Origin: Crystallibacter degradans
GTDB taxonomy: Bacteria; Actinomycetota; Actinomycetes; Actinomycetales; Micrococcaceae
DNA: 64,000 bases
Assembly: GCF_012952295.1 (NCBI RefSeq)
Contig: NZ_JABBCH010000007.1
Location: forward strand, 124,001-188,000
Direction of reading: 5' to 3'
Shown: one piece after another, positions 16,253 through 64,000 of the stretch
How positions within the stretch are numbered: position 1 is the first letter of the stretch
How the letters are laid out: each line of letters begins with the position of its first letter
Notes under the pieces: model-generated
What the model saw: the letters and a program-made list of their open reading frames with translations, nothing else
Told to the model about the DNA's origin: nothing
Database searches by the model: none
Translations under genes and position numbers: made by a program

Positions 16253-18673
16253 ATGACGACAGACATCCTCTGGTTCTCGGAACTCGGACTCAAGGACCTG
16301 GACCGGGTGGGCGGCAAGAACGCCTCCCTGGGGGAGATGGTGCAGAACCTGACCTCGGCCGGTGTCAAGGTGCCCGACGGCTTCGCCACGACGGCGGACG
16401 CTTACCGCCGCTTCTTGGCCGATTCGGGCCTGGACCAGCAGATCACCGCCCGGCTGGCCGGCTTGGATACCGATGACGTCAAGGCCTTGGCCGCCGCCGG
16501 CCAGGAGATTCGGCACCTGATGCGTGAGACGCCGTTCCTACCGGGCTTCGAAGAGCAGATCCGCAACTCCTATCAACAGCTGGTCGAGAAGCAAGGAGGC
16601 TCCGAGGACCTGTCCTGGGCCGTGCGTTCCAGCGCGACCGCGGAAGATCTTCCCGATGCCTCGTTCGCCGGGCAGCAGGAGACCTTCCTGAACGTCCGCG
16701 GCATCGAGAACATCCTGCAGGCCGTCAAGGATGTCTTCGCATCCCTCTACAACGACCGAGCCATCGCCTACCGCGTGCACCACAAGTTTGAGCACGCCGA
16801 GGTGGCACTGTCGGCGGGTATCCAGCGCATGGTGCGCTCCGACGTCGGTGCCTCCGGCGTCATGTTTACCATGGACACCGAATCGGGCTTCCACGACGCC
16901 GTCTTCGTCACCTCCTCCTACGGACTGGGCGAAGCCGTCGTCCAGGGCGCCGTGAACCCGGACGAGTTCTACGTCTACAAGCCCGCACTGCAGGCCGGCC
17001 GTCCCGCCATCCTCAAACGCGGACTGGGCGAGAAGGCCCTGCAGATGACCTACACCGCCAGCCGTGAAGTCGGCCGCACCATCGACTTTGTTCCGGTGGA
17101 GGCGTCGCAGCGGAGCCGGTTCAGCCTCACTGACGACGACGTCGAGCAACTCGCCCGGCACGCCGTCGCCATCGAGAACCACTACGGCCGCCCCATGGAC
17201 ATCGAATGGGGCAAGGACGGGATCGACGGAGGCTTGTACATCCTGCAGGCCCGTCCGGAGACCGTGCAGTCCCGTCGGGCCCCCGGCAGCCAGAGCCGCT
17301 TCCGCCTCAATGGGACCGGCCCGATTCTGGTCGAAGGCCGCGCCATTGGCCAGCGGATCGGTTCCGGCAGTGTCCGCATCCTCACCGCGATCGACCAGAT
17401 GGCATCGTTCCAGAGCGGTGACGTCCTCGTTGCCGACATGACCGACCCGGACTGGGAGCCGATCATGAAGCGCGCCTCCGCCATCGTCACCAACCGTGGT
17501 GGACGCACCTGCCACGCGGCCATCATCGCCCGCGAACTGGGTATTCCCGCTGTCGTCGGAACAGGGGCCGCTACAGAAGCTTTGTCCGACGGAATCGACG
17601 TCACCGTGTCCTGCGCCGATGGTGAGACCGGCGTGATTTACGGTGGCCTGCTGGACTTCAGCGTCGAAGAAACCGGGATCGCCCAGCTGCCCGAAGCCCC
17701 GGTGAAGGTCATGATGAATGTCGGCACCCCGGAGCAGGCGTTCACCTTCGCGCAGCTGCCGAACCACGGTGTGGGCCTTGCCCGGTTGGAGTTCATCATC
17801 AACCGCCAGATCGGCATCCACCCCAAGGCCCTGCTGAACCTGGATGACCAGCCGGAGGACGTGGCCGCGGAAATACGGAGGCGGATCGCCGCGTACGACA
17901 GCCCGCGCGACTACTACATCAAACGCCTCGCCGAAGGCGTGTCCACCATCGCCGCGGCCTTCGCACCGGAGCCGGTGATTGTGCGAATGTCCGACTTCAA
18001 GTCCAACGAGTACGCCAACCTGCTTGGCGGACCCGCCTACGAGCCGCACGAAGAGAACCCGATGACCGGCTTCCGCGGCGCTTCACGGTACCTCGAACCG
18101 ACCTTCCGGGACTGCTTCGACCTCGAGTGCGAGGCCCTGTCCTTCGTCCGCAACGAGATGGGACTGACCAACGTCAAGCTCATGATCCCGTTCGTAAGGA
18201 CCCTCGACGAGGCCCGCGGCGTCACCGACCTGCTGGCGGAGAACGGCCTCACCCGCGGCGAAAACGGCCTCGAGATCATCATGATGTGCGAGCTACCCTC
18301 AAACGCGCTGCTCGCCGACGAATTCCTCGACTACTTCGACGGATTCTCCATCGGCTCCAATGACATGACCCAGCTGACCCTCGGGCTGGACCGGGATTCG
18401 GCCATCGTCGCAGGCAGCTTCGACGAGCGCGACGCCGCCGTGAAGAAGCTCCTAACCATGGCCATCAACGCGTGCAAGGAGCGTGGTAAATATGTCGGCA
18501 TCTGCGGCCAAGGTCCCAGCGACCACCCGGACTTCGCCGAGTGGCTGGTCAGGAAAGGCATCGATTCCGTCTCACTGAACCCCGACACCGTAGTGGACAC
18601 CTGGCTCCAGCTTGCCGACGCCGTCGACGCCGAGATCAGTGCCGCCGCCGGCGAACTGTCCGCACCGCGCTGA
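16253..18673 (+). CDS. ppsA: Phosphoenolpyruvate synthase (pyruvate, water dikinase)
   Basis: Gluconeogenic enzyme converting pyruvate + ATP + water to PEP + AMP + Pi; 806 aa. N-terminal ATP-grasp domain ([39 protein letters not shown]), central phosphohistidine domain with [21 protein letters not shown], where the catalytic His is residue 421, and a C-terminal PEP-binding barrel with the acid/base Cys at 751 in [11 protein letters not shown]. Both numbers match the well-studied E. coli enzyme. AAAGGA precedes the ATG. Its placement right after the lactate operon and its own regulatory kinase suggests growth on lactate/pyruvate. Confidence 0.95.
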
Positions 18674-26457: not shown

Positions 26458-27045
26458 CCACCCAGCCTAACCACCCGCTCGATGGCGGTGTGAACCGTAC
26501 CGGGTCGCGCGTCGAACAGGCAGATAAAGCACTGGCGGAACCCCTCAAGCACGCCGACGCGCTCAAAGCCGCCCAGACGGACTCGGCACGCATTGACCAA
26601 CTCATGTCCTGTACCTGCTCCGCGTCGGGACGAGGGCCTCGTGAGTTCGGATATCGCCAATGGGGGACTGGCTCCCGACGCCGAAGTTCGCAGCTCGTGC
26701 AGATGCGGCTACGTCCCAGGGGCGCGTGTCTAAAGACTTCAGGCGGCGGCCGCGCTTAGGGGCAAGCTATGGATAGGGACCAGACCTGCGGGCTGGAAGG
26801 GCAGGCTTCGATCAACGAGCTGCTCGGCGTTACCCATATTCAGATGACGCTGCGGGCCGGGGGAATTCCGACTTCTGTCCTGACGCTGCGCATATCTCGT
26901 GCCAGTTACTGCCGTCATATGCGCCGTTATCAGCGTTGCGTTATATGCAAGGCGGCCGTGCTTCGCGATGGCCGCGTCGTTCCGACCGTCCTATGCGGTC
27001 AGAAGGAAAAGCTGCAACCGAAGCTCCGAATGCCGGAGCCACCCC
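26458..27045. other. Region without an intact gene
   Basis: About 590 bp upstream of the phosphomutase gene with no supported gene. Short frames here (such as 26490-26759) lack homology I recognise and could be decayed sequence. It contains a 24-bp sequence also present at 60092-60115 and leads directly into a broken ATPase gene. Confidence 0.5.
26914..26937 (+). repeat. 24-bp dispersed repeat, copy 1
   Basis: GTCATATGCGCCGTTATC followed by AGCGTT. The copy at 60092-60115 matches in 23 of 24 positions, same strand. It contains the palindromes CATATG and CGCCG-TTAT-C(A/G)GCG. Possibly an end or target remnant of a mobile element. Confidence 0.5.
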
Positions 27046-57929: not shown

Positions 57930-58022
57930 TCTCGGTTCCAATCTGGAGGCTTCTTCCGTTCCACCAGCGTGCCATGTGAGACAGCTAACAAGCCGGGGCA
58001 AAATGACCTACACTCTTCTCGC

Positions 58023-59738
58023 ATGAGACATTCTGCACCATCCTCCGGCGGCGGGGAGGACGTCCGGCCTGTGCGGGCGGGCGCCGACCAGTTTAGTGGC
58101 AGCACGGCCGGAGCCTTCGCGGCGGTCTCGCTGGAACGTTTCCTGGACCGGCTGCCGGACACCCTGACGGTGGTCCACGACGGCCGGCCGGGCACCGCGG
58201 AACCGGCCCTGGTCCGGTGGGTGGAGCCAAGCGAGTTGGAAGACCCCGCACCGTATCTGCTGGAGGGCGAATTCGTCCTGACCGCCGGACTCCCGTTCCT
58301 CGACGACGGCGGGACCCCCGAGGCCGTAGATCGGTACATCGAACGGCTGGTGCAGGCGAAAGTCTGCGCCCTTGGTTTCGGCATCAGCCCCTATTTCAGC
58401 GACATCCCCCAGACCCTGGCCGAGGCCTGCCGCAAGCACTCCCTCACCCTGGTCGCCATTCCGGAAGAAGTCCCCTTTGCCGCGTTGGGGCTCGAATTCG
58501 CCCGGCTGCTGGAGGCGGAGAACCTCAGGGTGCTGCGCCTGCTCTCGGAGGCAAACAGGCAGCTGATGCGCGCGGTGCTGACCCCGCGGCCCGAGGCCGA
58601 GCTGCTGGAAGCGCTGGTGCGGAACGTGCCGGTGTGGGCAGTGCTGGTCGGCGCCAACCGGCGCGTCCGCTCCCGTGCCGTCCCCGCGCAACTGCAAGGC
58701 GGCGTGCCCGAGGCGGCGGAACTGGAACCGATGCTGGCCCGGCTCTTCGCCGGCAGCGGCCCGCGGGTCGAACTGGAAAGCTTTGACGCGCCCGGGGCCC
58801 GGCGGGTGGTGGGGTATCCGCTCCGCAGCACCCGGGACGCAAACCTAGGTGCCCTCGTCGTCGGTGCGGCCAGCCCGCTGGAACCGGTGGAGAAGAACAT
58901 AGTCGAGACCGCCGTCGGGCTGCTGGAAGCCTTGCTGCGTCAACGCACGGTCGGCTCGCTGGCACCCAGCCAACTCGCAACAGCACTGCTGCTGCACCCG
59001 GAAACAACGACGGCGGGATCCCGGCGCTCGCAGGCGGTCGGACGGCTGGTGGCGCAAAGTGTGTCCGCGCCGCGTCATGCCGAACTCCGCGTGGTGCAGG
59101 GCTTCCGGGCAGGCGGGCCGGCTCCGGAATCAACGGAAAAAGCGGGTGTTCCGTCCGGGACGGGCGGCGAGGATCCGGTCCGCGGACTGCTGCAATGGCG
59201 GCGGATCTTCGACACCAAGCTGGTGGAAAGCACCGACTACGGGTTCGCTGCCATCACCAGGGTGCGGGTGGACGACGCGGTGGTGGCGGAGGTGGAGAAG
59301 CTCGGCTGGCACCTTGTCATCTCCGATACGGCCGAACTGCCGGAGCTGCCCGAGGCCTACCGGCGGGCCACTTCACTGCGGCAGCAGGCACAGGTTGCCG
59401 GGCGCAGTGTCAGGGCGGACCAGCTCGAGTTCTCGGTCACCGGCCTGCTGGGACCGGAGGCCGGGTCGATGCTGTTCAACCGGAGCTTCAGCCCACTGCG
59501 GCAGCTGGAGCCGGAGCGCGCCTCCGCCCTGCTGGCGGTACTGCGGGCGTGGCTGGAAGCGAACGGCAGTTGGGATGGCTCGGCCAAGGCGCTGGGCCTG
59601 CACCGCAACAGTGTCCGGCGGCAGATCGGCCAGGTGGGGGAGCTGCTGGGGCGGGACCTGTCCGACGCGCAAACACGGGCCGAACTCCTGATCGCGCTGA
59701 ATTACAGCCCACCGGATCTGCTGCCTGGCCCGGAATAG
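58023..59738 (+). CDS. PucR-family transcriptional regulator
   Basis: 571 aa. N-terminal PucR-like domain (residues ~30-165: LDRLPDTLTVVHDGRPGTAEPALVRWVEPSELEDPAPYLLEGEFVLTAGL), a middle GGDEF-like/GAF-like part, and a C-terminal PucR helix-turn-helix (LRAWLEANGSWDGSAKALGLHRNSVRRQIGQVGELLGRDL). Diverges from the permease/amine oxidase operon across a 93-bp gap, so it is likely its activator. PucR proteins also regulate purine genes, but linkage here favours the amino acid operon. Confidence 0.88.
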   Translation: MRHSAPSSGGGEDVRPVRAGADQFSGSTAGAFAAVSLERFLDRLPDTLTVVHDGRPGTAEPALVRWVEPSELEDPAPYLLEGEFVLTAGLPFLDDGGTPEAVDRYIERLVQAKVCALGFGISPYFSDIPQTLAEACRKHSLTLVAIPEEVPFAALGLEFARLLEAENLRVLRLLSEANRQLMRAVLTPRPEAELLEALVRNVPVWAVLVGANRRVRSRAVPAQLQGGVPEAAELEPMLARLFAGSGPRVELESFDAPGARRVVGYPLRSTRDANLGALVVGAASPLEPVEKNIVETAVGLLEALLRQRTVGSLAPSQLATALLLHPETTTAGSRRSQAVGRLVAQSVSAPRHAELRVVQGFRAGGPAPESTEKAGVPSGTGGEDPVRGLLQWRRIFDTKLVESTDYGFAAITRVRVDDAVVAEVEKLGWHLVISDTAELPELPEAYRRATSLRQQAQVAGRSVRADQLEFSVTGLLGPEAGSMLFNRSFSPLRQLEPERASALLAVLRAWLEANGSWDGSAKALGLHRNSVRRQIGQVGELLGRDLSDAQTRAELLIALNYSPPDLLPGPE

Positions 59739-60091: not shown

Positions 60092-60115
60092 GTCATATGC
60101 GCCGTTATCGGCGTT
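60092..60115 (+). repeat. 24-bp dispersed repeat, copy 2
   Basis: GTCATATGCGCCGTTATC then GGCGTT; differs from the copy at 26914-26937 by one base. Here CGCCG-TTAT-CGGCG (60100-60113) is a perfect palindrome. Lies 19 bp from the end of the accessory operon. Confidence 0.5.
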
Positions 60116-60133: not shown

Positions 60134-61573
60134 CTAGAAGAGTGTGTCCCAGGCGATCGATTCCTCGGCTTTGCGTTTATGCGCGGCTTTCGCGCTGAGC
60201 GGTATCACGCGCTCGGACTCAGGCAGGTTTTTGACTATATCTGCGGCTCGTTCTGTTGCCCAGGGACTAGGTGAGTTGAGGTAGGCGCGAGTTGCCTCAG
60301 CAGATACCCAGCCCAGGTCGGTGAGGTGCTGAAGGAGGGCGTCTGCGATGATTTTCACTTCTGTGGCCCGGGTCCGCGGGACGCTGATGTCATGTTGTGG
60401 ATCGAGCAGTGTCAGGGGTTCTTCCCGGATGCGCACGACCCGGAAGTCTGCGTCCAAGAGCCGCTGTGTCTTCCTACGGTCTGGTTCTTCCTTGCCATTG
60501 TGAAAGAAAGACCCGTCGTACTCGATGGCAATCTTGAGGGATTTCATGAGGATGTCGACGGTATGGGGCCGGTTGTGGCCAAGATCCAGTCGCTCCTGTT
60601 TTACCGGGTCCACTTCCTGTGGAAAGACCGCGGCGAGTTCGCAGGCCAGGGCAATGTCCATCCGGGAGCGTTTGGACGGCGCGCAGTGTTTGCAGCCGTC
60701 GCGGTCGATGGCACGTGCACGGACCTGCGTTTGCCAGACATGTCTTGGGTCCACGGGGCAAATCCACCAGACGGGCTTGTTGCTTCCGATGCTGACGCCT
60801 GCGGGGGTCAGAGGCAGGTTTTTAGTAGGATGCCACTGCTTCGCCAGGGCCGGCCGCTGAAGGTCGAGCCGGTTCCGGTCGGAGGGGAGCTTGCCGTCGC
60901 AGTAGGGACAGCCGGCTCCGTCCGCGGGCCGGGAGCTAACTGCGGCTTTCCATCGATGGGTGGCGTCCTTTCGGCAGATCCAGGCCGCGGTGTAGTTGCT
61001 GCCTACCGTAACGTCCTCGGGATTTCGGTCATTGTCAGGGCTCCATTCCGAGGCCAGTATCGGATGCACTCCGGCGACACTGTTGGAGGCGTTGACTTTC
61101 TTCCCCGCACAGTATGGGCATCCCCTGCCGCGAAATCGTGCGGCGGGGGAGGCGGTGTAGTCGTGGGTGGGGTCTCGAGGGCAGGTCCACCACACTTCGT
61201 TGTTTGCCTGGGGAAGAACCTCGGACGGGGACAACCCGAGTTCGGAGCGGTTGCGTTTATGGTGCCAGGTAGTCATCAGGTCCGGTCGGGCCACGGCCAG
61301 GTTGTTCTCAGGCGTGGCCTTCATGCCTTTGCAGGCTGCGCAGCCATGGCCCCGCGTGCGGGTGTAGGGGGCCGCTTCCCAGGAGTGGCCCCTGTCGCAC
61401 AGCCACCAGATCTGCCGGTTGCTTCCCGGGGTGACCTGGGCAGGGGTCATCTTGTTTCTCGAATGATCCCATTGGGCGGCAATATCGGGATATAGGTGCT
61501 CCAGCGACCGGTGGCCTTCGTCACGGACCGGCTGTTGTCTTCTTCCGGTCCGGCGCCGGTCGTCGGGGCTCAT
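60134..61573 (-). CDS. Zinc-ribbon array protein with C-terminal Vsr/DUF559-like nuclease domain
   Basis: 479 aa. Four consecutive ~60-residue modules (about 30-81, 95-155, 170-225, 240-297), each with an IAxxW / GSNxxxWW start, a C-x(n)-H-x-W core (for example WWICPVDPRHVWQTQV) and a closing GCxYC or GCxxC pair, match the probable-zinc-ribbon repeat family. Residues ~303-420 resemble a PD-(D/E)XK nuclease of the Vsr/DUF559 type: VDILMKSLKIAIEYDGSFFH (Asp340, Glu351, Asp353), Lys368, then ADFRVVRIRE. ATG 61573 overlaps the NERD gene stop (ATGA); the longer open frame upstream is antisense-like and rejected. Confidence 0.8.
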   Translation of the reverse strand: MSPDDRRRTGRRQQPVRDEGHRSLEHLYPDIAAQWDHSRNKMTPAQVTPGSNRQIWWLCDRGHSWEAAPYTRTRGHGCAACKGMKATPENNLAVARPDLMTTWHHKRNRSELGLSPSEVLPQANNEVWWTCPRDPTHDYTASPAARFRGRGCPYCAGKKVNASNSVAGVHPILASEWSPDNDRNPEDVTVGSNYTAAWICRKDATHRWKAAVSSRPADGAGCPYCDGKLPSDRNRLDLQRPALAKQWHPTKNLPLTPAGVSIGSNKPVWWICPVDPRHVWQTQVRARAIDRDGCKHCAPSKRSRMDIALACELAAVFPQEVDPVKQERLDLGHNRPHTVDILMKSLKIAIEYDGSFFHNGKEEPDRRKTQRLLDADFRVVRIREEPLTLLDPQHDISVPRTRATEVKIIADALLQHLTDLGWVSAEATRAYLNSPSPWATERAADIVKNLPESERVIPLSAKAAHKRKAEESIAWDTLF

Positions 61574-62442
61574 GGAACAAGAATTGTTGGGATGAGGGTG
61601 GCAGCAGCGGGGATGAGAGCAGCAAGTATGGCACCCATGGCGGCCAAGGCGCCGAAAGCCCAGGCTGTGCGGCGGGCCCGGGCGGCGCTCACTTGCCTCT
61701 GCAGGTCGATGAAGCTGTTGCGCAGAGCGGCGGGGTTCCCGGGAACCGGCGGATTCCTGTGCCAAGTTTCCGGACGGCTGGCCGCTGCAACAATTTCGGC
61801 AATTTGTTCGGAAGTCAGGACCGGTTTGCGGCGGGTGAGCCAGCGCAAGAGCTGCCTTTCCGTCAGTACCCTTACAGCGGCGGGTTTTTCCCGGATAGTC
61901 AGTTTTTTGGCTCCGACAATGACCACAACCCCGGTGACCGGAACTGGTGTCGAGGTCACGGCAGCGAGAAGCTTTGCAGCTCGGGACGCCTCGTGCACTG
62001 CGTTGGATATGTGGCACTGTTTGCGGCCAGCGACCATGAAGGTGTTGCCCGCTACCCAAACGTTCTGGTTGGCGTGGTTCTTCGTGTTGAGCGTGAAGAC
62101 TCCTGCGGGTCCGATCAGCACGTGGTCAATGTCCGAGGATCCGGTGCCGACCGGAACGGCGTGCAGAACCGTCCAGTCCGCCCTGAGCGACGTGAGGATA
62201 TGTCCGATCCTGATTTCCCCTAGAGCACCCTGGTACCAGGGCAGGCTGTCGGGGCTGAGTGGATTGGCGCCGAAGATTCGCCCTAGCCGGGAGCGAGGCT
62301 GGACTCGGTTCTGTATGGCCAGCAGTTCGGTGATGACCGCATGCCCCGGTATTCGATTCTGCAGGCGGAGAGTTTGATCTTCAGCACTAATGGCGCTATC
62401 AGGGGCGGAGGATTCCAAGGCTGGGAGTTCATGGGACCGCAT
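61570..62442 (-). CDS. NERD-domain protein with C-terminal membrane segment
   Basis: 290 aa. NERD nuclease-related domain at ~70-185: GALGEIRIGHIL (Gly-Glu), SSDIDHVLIGPAGVFTLNTKNH (Asp104, Asp106; the usual Glu-x-Lys reads Asn-Thr-Lys at 119-121), VWVAGNTFMVAGRK. The C-terminal ~30 residues (TAWAFGALAAMGAILAALIPAAATLIP) form one transmembrane helix, so the domain is probably tethered to the membrane. ATGA overlap with the zinc-ribbon gene and a 10-bp gap from the OGG-fold gene show tight cotranscription. Confidence 0.85.
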   Translation of the reverse strand: MRSHELPALESSAPDSAISAEDQTLRLQNRIPGHAVITELLAIQNRVQPRSRLGRIFGANPLSPDSLPWYQGALGEIRIGHILTSLRADWTVLHAVPVGTGSSDIDHVLIGPAGVFTLNTKNHANQNVWVAGNTFMVAGRKQCHISNAVHEASRAAKLLAAVTSTPVPVTGVVVIVGAKKLTIREKPAAVRVLTERQLLRWLTRRKPVLTSEQIAEIVAAASRPETWHRNPPVPGNPAALRNSFIDLQRQVSAARARRTAWAFGALAAMGAILAALIPAAATLIPTILVP

Positions 62443-62452
62443 CGTCAGTGGG

Positions 62453-63148
62453 TTACTTTCCTGTGGCGAAAGCCCAGCGTTCGACTTCGTCTGCCCCGAC
62501 CGTTCGATCAGGGGTGGACAGGTCGTGAGCCCATGTCGTCAGGGTTTGGACGGCTGCGTCGTAGGTTCTGAACCCGTAGTTTGTGGTCTTTGGTTTAAAG
62601 ACGGGGAGTTGGGTTTCCCGATGCAGAGTTGTGAGGACACGCTTGTCGACGATGGGGCAGGTGTGGCCTATTTCTCCGCCCCCGGCGAAGTAAAGGTATT
62701 TGGTGAAGAAGTTCGGTCCGAGTGATTTGATGGCGTTGCCGCGGGGCTGGAATTTGAGGAAGGCTTCCCGCGGGTCGGAAACTGCAAGGCGTGCGGCATC
62801 GCGCAGCAACTGAGTTGTTCGTTGAGGTTCGGCTTCTATGGAGCGGATTCGGCGCGGGCTGTTGCGGTGGCTTGATCCGGTTCCCCACACGAGGGTGTGC
62901 CAGAACAGTCGAAGGGCTCCGGCTCCGGTCTCGTCGCGGTGTGCGTCGGCTGCCAGATCGAAGAGGAATGCTCGGCTGATCCTGTCCTTGGCGGTAGTTC
63001 CCTCAGAGCCGAAGACCGGGCTTCCGGGCAGGTGGGCAATGCGTTGGTTCCACCACTCGAGATTCAGCTCGAAGCCGTGGTTATCAATAGCATCGGCGCG
63101 GGTATGGGACTCGATCCAGCTTTTTAGGGACGGCGGCGTGGGCGGCAC
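62453..63148 (-). CDS. OGG-fold (8-oxoguanine DNA glycosylase-like) protein
   Basis: 231 aa. The core is a helix-hairpin-helix-like segment KSLGPNFFTKYLYFAGGG (141-158) followed by CPIVDKRVL (164-172); Lys150 and Asp168 fit the Lys/Asp pair of HhH-GPD glycosylases. NCBI-style naming for this group is 8-oxoguanine DNA glycosylase OGG fold protein. The GTG start at 63148 has a perfect AAGGAGGA site upstream and lies 16 bp after the ATPase stop; an in-frame upstream extension overlapping the ATPase gene is rejected. The N-terminal ~130 residues are unassigned. Such proteins occur beside ATPases in accessory, probably defensive, loci (inferred). Confidence 0.75.
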   Translation of the reverse strand: MPPTPPSLKSWIESHTRADAIDNHGFELNLEWWNQRIAHLPGSPVFGSEGTTAKDRISRAFLFDLAADAHRDETGAGALRLFWHTLVWGTGSSHRNSPRRIRSIEAEPQRTTQLLRDAARLAVSDPREAFLKFQPRGNAIKSLGPNFFTKYLYFAGGGEIGHTCPIVDKRVLTTLHRETQLPVFKPKTTNYGFRTYDAAVQTLTTWAHDLSTPDRTVGADEVERWAFATGK

Positions 63149-63164
63149 GGTATCTCCTCCTTGC

Positions 63165-64000
63165 TCATGCAATCGCAAGTTCCTCATCCTCCCGGGGTGC
63201 ATTGTCAACTAAGAGATGAGAATCGAGGCCGAGGGCTTCGCACATCTGCGTGAAGTGTTTGGCATCTTGATTCTGTATGAGTTCAAAAACCGCATGGAGT
63301 ATAAGCACGGCTTCTGGCCTATTTACGCCACGTGTTGTCTCCACTCGTTCCTGATGGGAATACTGATGTAGATAGTTGACCATCCGTTGACGAGTCAGAC
63401 CGTCATCCATCGCATCGATTGCCATCTGCATCTGTACCCTGAAGTCGCCCATTTGAGCGGGAAATTTGAAGCTGAGGAAGCCTTCTAAGAGACGGCGACA
63501 GACGTTCGGAAGGATGATGGCCGCATCCATTTCGTGCTCAATAGTTGGGCTTTCCCCGCATGAAATCAATGTGGTAGCAGCTCGCCAGAATAGATAGTGG
63601 TACTCGGAGCGGAGGCGAGTCCGAAGAGCTTTGTCCTCCCTGTCTTTATCCGATCCCCAGTCGCGCCAGGTAGGGACGCGGCGAGCGACTCCCACCTCGA
63701 CCTTTTTTGCCTGGGCCTGTAATTCGAGGATTTTGAAGCTTCGCCGCTGCTTTCTGACACCTTCCTTGAGCCGATCGAGTTGATTCGACCAAATCCTGAA
63801 AAGCTCAAAATTATGGGTCATCAGGAAGACCTGGCCACAATCGCGTGTGAGCTTTTGGCCGCAGCGACACCCAGGGGGAGCACCACACTCACAGACCGAA
63901 GGCTGGACCAATGCTGCCCACAGGAGGCTTGACGCGCCGATTGTGAAATTTTCGTCCAAGCTTGAGACAGGATCGTCGATAACGACAATCTGGTCGCGAA
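63165..64000 (-). CDS. AAA_13-type ATPase, C-terminal part (5' end outside window)
   Basis: Frame runs off the right edge; the visible ~278 residues begin RDQIVVIDDPVSSLDENFTIG, i.e. Walker B plus D-loop of an SMC/Rad50-like AAA_13 ATPase. QVFLMTHNFELFRIW is the H-loop His. Between them sits an unusual cysteine cluster (CECGAPPGCRCG...CG, six Cys). The C-terminal helical domain has the family's LPNVCRRLLEGFLSFKFP and NYLHQYSHQE. N-terminal P-loop, coiled coils and any effector domain lie beyond the window. First visible gene of the leftward operon. Confidence 0.8.
   Translation of the reverse strand, partial: RDQIVVIDDPVSSLDENFTIGASSLLWAALVQPSVCECGAPPGCRCGQKLTRDCGQVFLMTHNFELFRIWSNQLDRLKEGVRKQRRSFKILELQAQAKKVEVGVARRVPTWRDWGSDKDREDKALRTRLRSEYHYLFWRAATTLISCGESPTIEHEMDAAIILPNVCRRLLEGFLSFKFPAQMGDFRVQMQMAIDAMDDGLTRQRMVNYLHQYSHQERVETTRGVNRPEAVLILHAVFELIQNQDAKHFTQMCEALGLDSHLLVDNAPREDEELAIA

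Follow-up and report, generated by a model that had tools for sequence, protein, structure and literature searches.

A four-gene operon of Crystallibacter degradans, probably carried in a cassette with dif-like ends

The DNA analyzed here, called the window below, is a stretch of 64,000 nucleotides from Crystallibacter degradans, positions 124,001 to 188,000 of contig NZ_JABBCH010000007.1 (C92) in an assembly of 124 contigs and 4.96 Mb (G000). At its right end, a row of minus-strand genes encodes an ABC ATPase of the AAA_13 type, an OGG-like protein (OGG is the Pfam label of PF21790), a NERD-domain protein and a protein that combines DUF4379 with DUF559. Judging from sequence comparison, these four genes very probably form the cargo of a cassette with dif-like repeats at its two ends. 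The reading as a whole, in which this accessory operon is a 5.6-kb mobile dif-site cassette with a two-layer cargo directed against foreign DNA, seems moderately probable to us; the two-layer defense as such, which we derive from the protein families, is put forward tentatively.

The operon spans 60134-65618 in window numbering and fills a single low-GC block of 5.6 kb between two direct 24-bp repeats, with 57.5% GC in the cargo vs 66.9% and 65.9% in the flanks (Table 1). On the plus strand, the border repeats read GCGCCGTTATCGGCGTT and GCGCCGTTATCGGAGTT; the left one follows the stop codon of the last gene at a distance of 18 bp, and beyond the right one, on its far side from the ATPase, is the nitrilase-like gene. 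An earlier note on the window described an operon-like set of four leftward genes with junctions of 16, 10 and -4 bp, all of which are present as stated, and missed the cassette, since part of it is beyond the window edge. The first gene crosses the window edge and, because the contig continues past it, the ATPase could be read to its full length, as the note had recommended. Pfam bore out the domain calls (AAA_13, 3.5e-101; OGG, 4.3e-50; NERD, 1.5e-14; DUF4379, 6.4e-66 in four stretches), the DUF559 match being weak, and no match of the operon proteins to NCBIfam reached its cut-off. A consensus promoter scan gave no useful signal (4 promoter-like sites vs 1.6 expected).

Table 1. Features of the cassette, its neighbors and the recombinase locus (window numbering unless a contig or locus is named)
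Feature	Position	Strand	Remarks
Left dif-like cassette site, AACGCCGATAACGGCGCATATGAC	60092-60115 (C92:184092-184115)	-	Exact match to consensus
DUF4379 (four treble-clef zinc repeats) with C-terminal DUF559/Vsr-like domain	60134-61573	-	479 aa; Pfam
NERD-domain protein	61570-62442	-	290 aa; Pfam and alignment
OGG-like protein (PF21790), candidate DNA glycosylase of helix-hairpin-helix type	62453-63148	-	231 aa from GTG; G144, T149, K150, D168
RloC-type ABC ATPase, candidate anticodon nuclease	63165-65618 (63165-64000 inside window; extends to contig base 189618)	-	817 aa
Right dif-like cassette site, AACTCCGATAACGGCGCAACTGTC	65727-65750 (C92:189727-189750), outside window		Beyond the ATPase; 3 mismatches to consensus
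PucR-like gene, left neighbor	57969-59738	+	Named by eye
Nitrilase-like gene, right neighbor, upstream of ATPase	Ends 384 bp before ATPase start	-	Named by eye
dif-like sequence, cassette site and 376-aa recombinase gene in a row	L270:10014-11600 (G000:C43)		Near contig end

The flanking PucR-like and nitrilase-like genes are kept in congeners, and the stretch between them is variable. Congener G151 has a single copy of the repeat, GCGCCGTTATAGGCGTT, within ~0.5 kb between the two genes and lacks the operon cargo; in G038 they are ~0.16 kb apart; G062 carries ~2.4 kb of other genes at this locus, and G163 carries other genes until the contig ends 2.3 kb on. No site above threshold was found at this locus in G038, G062 or the G163 stretch. 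On plasmids, no near DNA match of the cassette was found.

The repeat belongs to a family of sites that is spread throughout the genus. The sequence of the site on the gene strand is AACGCCGATAA-CGGCGC-ATATGWC, and its 17-bp core, at one mismatch, is present in all 10 genomes of the genus, with 0 to 3 matches per genome in a backward control. The 24-bp consensus was derived from 63 sites, among which those of close relatives are not independent. Conservation extends to the seven bases that the search pattern did not include, and there it cannot have been forced by the search. Allowing up to three mismatches, the 24-bp form occurs at 100 sites in all ten genomes of the genus and at 27 sites in 24 of the 285 other genomes of the family, with 2 backward-control matches in the 295 genomes together; a search of an order-wide sample of 248 genomes, allowing two mismatches, gave no match in the 229 that belong to other families. 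The sites are mostly intergenic (43 of 57, or 75%, vs 15.8% for random positions in the same stretches), their 6-bp center is nearly invariant, and 39 of the 40 neighboring pairs examined share the same orientation. A matrix search found 14 sites within ~39 kb of one contig of G085, all in the same direction, and other genomes of the genus have few (two in G007, three in G038). No exact 22-bp site was detected in viral contigs.

The window contains a second dif-like site, AACGCTGATAACGGCGCATATGAC, at 26914-26937 on the minus strand, with flanks that by eye resemble those of the site at 17621 of G163:C39, beside the three-gene cassette of that contig. Around five other sites (L221, L232, L238, L243 and L245), the adjacent ~65-100 bp are alike and include, by eye, an imperfect inverted repeat with bulged bases that recalls attC-type folding. 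Outside the genus, some rare single sites (L271, L276, L278, L279) adjoin DUF4041, DUF4379 and JetA (DUF3375) genes.

Comparison of genomes suggests that these sites behave as recombination points. The three-gene cargo of G062 is located on another contig in G163, between two sites. The cassette of this G062/G163 type also occurs in G243, a member of another genus, where it matches G163 at 90.9% identity over 1172 bp, the match ending at the end of the site and being limited on the left by the stretch chosen. G203 and G240 are 94.8% identical over ~1520 bp that begin with the site and extend to its JetA side; ahead of the site the two show no in-register match, and there G240 has a broken relative of DUF4379, the family of the last gene of the operon. 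Finally, the arrays of G151 and G163 are rearranged with respect to each other, with breaks at sites in both genomes. Recombination at the sites thus appears to have inserted, removed and exchanged cassettes in the genus, including at the PucR-like/nitrilase-like locus, and some intervals may be merely chromosome between two scattered sites. Alternatively, the 24-bp motif could be a dispersed regulatory or terminator element, as its preference for intergenic positions and its presence between ordinary metabolic genes might indicate; given the occupied and empty forms of the same locus, the cross-genus homology that ends at a site, the array breaks at sites and the lack of matches in the 229 genomes from other families of the order, we consider this very improbable.

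The similarity of the site to dif is partial. An actinobacterial dif pattern that we assumed at the outset was then borne out in the genomes of the genus: the dif candidate (AAC or TTC)GCCGATAATCTACATTATGTCAA was recognized in 8 of the 10 and, with one base changed, in G007, and was not recognized in the fragmented G105. In 5 of these 9 genomes, the first arms of the cassette site and of dif are identical, and in the other 4 they differ at two bases; the second arm is similar to dif over the inner 7 positions only, and the 6-bp center differs. In dif itself, two 11-bp arms enclose a 6-bp center (PMC5357621).

The nearest known kind of element appears to be the dif or pdif (Xer) modules of Acinetobacter, described as accessory cargo between sites in which a XerC arm and a XerD arm enclose a 6-bp spacer; the modules follow one another on plasmids or chromosomes, and their varied contents include terC (PMC12907356, PMC13141974). 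The cassettes of the genus studied here appear to follow a similar general plan, insofar as their sites may be read as a XerC-type arm, a 6-bp center and a XerD-type arm. They differ in their actinobacterial hosts, in the near-constant center and in the direct orientation of neighboring sites, whereas the C and D modules of Acinetobacter are reported to alternate, such that neighboring sites are inverted (PMC12907356, PMC13141974). These modules have been described as unique to Acinetobacter (PMC13141974), and no dif modules or XerC cassettes of Actinobacteria appeared among the papers listed from the open-licence PMC literature. Integrons offer a second parallel, in their cassette arrays of one orientation and in the tyrosine recombinase gene that, in G000, adjoins one site; because neighboring sites in 39 of 40 pairs point the same way, cassettes could enter one at a time, as they do in integrons. 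The difference is in the sites, which are 24-bp and dif-like rather than attC. The IntegronFinder 2.0 report lists no complete integron in Actinobacteria (PMC9024848).

As for the cargo, the ATPase carries the signature of RloC. It has the Walker A motif from residue 44, the ABC signature from 516, Walker B from 545 and the switch histidine H602, with the key residues at least 94% kept in an earlier 16-sequence alignment. In an alignment of 18 AAA_13-type proteins gathered by similarity to the query, each cysteine of the zinc hook C279/C282 (C-x2-C) is kept in 16 proteins and each residue of the C-terminal R708-x3-E712-x42-H755 triad, with S754, in 15, the hook and triad motifs being absent from a few divergent members. 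RloC is described as a protein with ABC motifs, a zinc hook and an Arg-X3-Glu-X36-52-His triad in which Ser often precedes the His, and as a nuclease that cuts tRNA anticodons (PMC2610378); it is reported to be activated by DNA breaks (PMC3874168). The kinship to PrrC/RloC proposed in the earlier note is therefore upheld by the hook and the triad, and this combination of motifs argues that the ATPase is probably a break-activated tRNase. It differs from RloC in that its best named model is the PADLOC entry PDC-S06 (1.1e-127) and in that its gene heads an operon of enzymes that likely attack DNA. The family is already a candidate in PADLOC. The other three operon proteins had no PADLOC match up to E = 1, and the ATPase had no match in PDB at 0.01.

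The OGG-like protein has, by prediction, the intact site expected of an active helix-hairpin-helix glycosylase. Among 42 sequences of the family, 98% retain the hairpin lysine K150 and 100% retain the aspartate D168; by motif, these residues would correspond to K249 and D268 of OGG1, a pair named in PMC13160076. The GTG start is preceded by AAGGAGG (by eye), and an alternative TTG start is possible at 63208. A single-sequence AlphaFold model reached a pLDDT of only 35.8, and the sole PDB match, a phospholipase at 0.9, was taken as chance. As a candidate DNA glycosylase in an accessory setting, the protein resembles the antiviral glycosylases Brig1 and Brig3, most Brig1 relatives being reported from Actinobacteria (PMC11078745, PMC13160076); the Brig proteins, however, belong to the uracil-DNA-glycosylase superfamily and the operon protein to PF21790. 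OGG relatives occur on plasmids too, mainly of Rhodococcus and Arthrobacter, and none was found in viral contigs. A second OGG-family gene of G000 (L042, G000:C49:10993-11613) shares its 20-kb contig with a dif-like site close to the contig end (C49:19762).

In the NERD protein, E76, D104, N119 and K121 are invariant across 21 sequences, and the C-terminus is hydrophobic by eye. A NERD relative with 69% identity in congener G136 (L303:3783-4832) starts ~150 bp from a cassette site, and so the NERD family may travel in cassettes alone. The last protein of the operon has zinc-binding repeats and a Vsr-like C-terminal domain; relatives lie beside sites of this type in G256 and, as the broken frame, in G240.

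Taken together, these features suggest the following scheme. The two direct dif-like sites, each with a XerC-type arm, a 6-bp center and a XerD-type arm, would form the cassette ends, at which site-specific recombination by the host XerC/XerD or by a dedicated Xer-like integrase would load, remove and swap cassettes. The four genes would be expressed as one message. In a first layer, the OGG-like glycosylase, the NERD protein and the zinc-repeat DUF559 protein would damage incoming DNA; in a second, the RloC-type protein would sense the broken DNA via its Rad50-like head and then cut tRNA anticodons, stopping translation.

Several observations, given in this and the following paragraphs, weigh against this reading. 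The right site has 3 mismatches to the 24-bp consensus, of which two fall within the XerD-type arm; G062 has cargo at the locus with no detectable remaining site; and in the dif of G000 itself the first arm is two bases off the cassette site. A rule that sites stand near gene 3' ends was tried and was not clear: 44% of the intergenic sites lie within 150 bp of a 3' end vs 34% of random intergenic points, so that they are weakly closer. With respect to the cargo, the DUF559 match (0.0015) is under the curated Pfam cut-off, and the E-x-K motif usual in NERD domains is here N-x-K, with Asn for Glu.

Other counterpoints concern the recombinase, which is likely either the host XerC/XerD or a dedicated Xer-like integrase. 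In G000:C43, the gene for a 376-aa tyrosine recombinase starts ~240 bp from a site, and the enzyme is therefore not necessarily Xer; the upstream flank of this recombinase also adjoins sites in G000:C54, G163:C39 and G163:C43, with the gene itself not in view. These associations, and the nearly invariant center, would fit a rival explanation in which the repeats are att sites of an element with its own Xer-like integrase, the cassettes are non-autonomous passengers and XerC/XerD have no role. Yet G062 (a single contig), G085 and G122 harbor 12, 19 and 8 sites, respectively, 39 in total, and the PF00589 proteins found in them are of the XerC/XerD type only, one scoring above the XerD cut-off and the other falling slightly short of that for XerC; of these genomes, G085 and G122 are in multiple contigs, which could hide another recombinase. 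That dif and the cassette site have the same first arm in 5 of 9 genomes with a recognized dif also speaks against a dedicated integrase, and we regard this explanation as plausible, if rather doubtful. The 376-aa recombinase had no match to the integron-integrase model TIGR02249 at E<=1e-20, and the short open reading frame (ORF) that follows its gene looks like a helix-turn-helix protein.

Cooperation among the four proteins is unproven, given that their families do not recur together. Each family was sought in the 295 genomes of the taxonomic family. Including the genome studied here, OGG was found in 60 genomes, the ATPase in 20, the DUF4379 protein in 23 and NERD in 72; outside it, there are 68 OGG places in 59 genomes, 27 ATPase places in 19, 23 DUF4379 places (one per locus) in 22 and 88 NERD places in 71. 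Among the other genomes, OGG coexists with the ATPase in 5, with DUF4379 in 9 and with NERD in 16; DUF4379 and NERD coexist in 7, the ATPase and NERD in 2, and the ATPase and DUF4379 in none. Outside G000, no two families lie within 15 kb of each other in the 295 genomes except in G190 (L054), where an OGG gene is located ~4 kb from an ATPase gene broken into two ORFs. We read 40 OGG loci, up to ~8 kb per side, one of which is the second copy in G000. None of them contains a NERD or DUF4379 relative, and three contain matches to the ATPase profile: the split gene of L054 and, in L063 and L073, divergent ABC-ATPase homologs that lack the RloC triad. The neighbors of the OGG genes vary, with type I restriction-like (HsdM/HsdS) and resolvase-like genes recurring in a few loci, by eye. 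The closest ATPase relative found is 68% identical and comes from Arthrobacter bambusae; the 8 kb around it contain no relative of the three partners. Near this gene (L202:8019-12340) are a gene resembling DUF4041/T5orf172 (SNIPE-like) proteins and, by eye, a JetD-like fragment.

For lack of recurrent linkage in the family, we reject a conserved, undescribed four-gene system, such as the earlier note had suspected; the lack of recurrent linkage that it had named as the refuting outcome is what was found, both in the 295 genomes, apart from the pair in G190, and at the closest ATPase relative. A genuine but rare multi-gene defense system, with the flanking repeats incidental, could be argued from the tight operon (junctions of -4, 10 and 16 bp) and from the lack of any site remnant above threshold inside it; it is nevertheless unlikely in view of the absence of a second such locus among the 295 genomes, the triad-less homologs of L063 and L073, the partnerless relative from A. 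bambusae and the different setting of the one plasmid OGG relative inspected. A stronger rival holds that independent single-gene defense or repair genes, each working alone, are stacked in one transcript in the cassette. Each family indeed occurs elsewhere without the others, and PDC-S06 is, by its name, presumably a single-gene candidate (taking S in that sense); the overlap and close spacing of the genes, which suggest translational coupling, speak against independence, and we rate this explanation as possible, somewhat short of an even chance.

The cargo of the other cassettes is the remaining counterpoint to the reading of the operon as a mobile defense cassette. Of 98 cassette ORFs of at least 120 aa, the 95 in 33 other intervals between sites were scanned, the three of the cassette studied here being left out. 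Only 2 of the 95 matched PADLOC models at 1e-10, and among the matches listed (the first 25 of 97 Pfam families) are transporters, regulators, TerC, CNNM and metabolic genes. An enrichment of the arrays in defense genes was thus not found, and the sites do not mark a defense island as such; the operon cassette appears to be one defense-like cargo among others. Outside the genus, some site neighbors are JetA, PD-Lambda-1/DUF4041 and DUF4379 relatives, and several others had no informative match; because these proteins were hand-picked (nine plus three), they do not prove enrichment. We take JetA to be part of Wadjet and PD-Lambda-1 to be SNIPE-like. Both DUF4041 and GIY-YIG are named in connection with SNIPE (PMC13190303).

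Overall, we cautiously propose, as a picture that could prove right without yet being the probable one, that the genus runs an integron-like system built from dif: direct sites with a near-fixed center, served by XerC/XerD or a Xer-derived integrase, would gather single cassettes into chromosomal arrays, and one of these cassettes would hold a composite defense operon whose glycosylase and nucleases break foreign DNA and in this way arm an RloC tRNase. If this is correct, the same-orientation array of dif-like cassettes in Actinobacteria would represent a further design for stockpiling genes that draws on the chromosome-dimer machinery or a related one, and the 24-bp site would serve as a tag for delimiting cassettes in genomes. 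The operon cassette would offer a direct test case for DNA-attacking enzymes and a break-activated tRNase acting as two layers.

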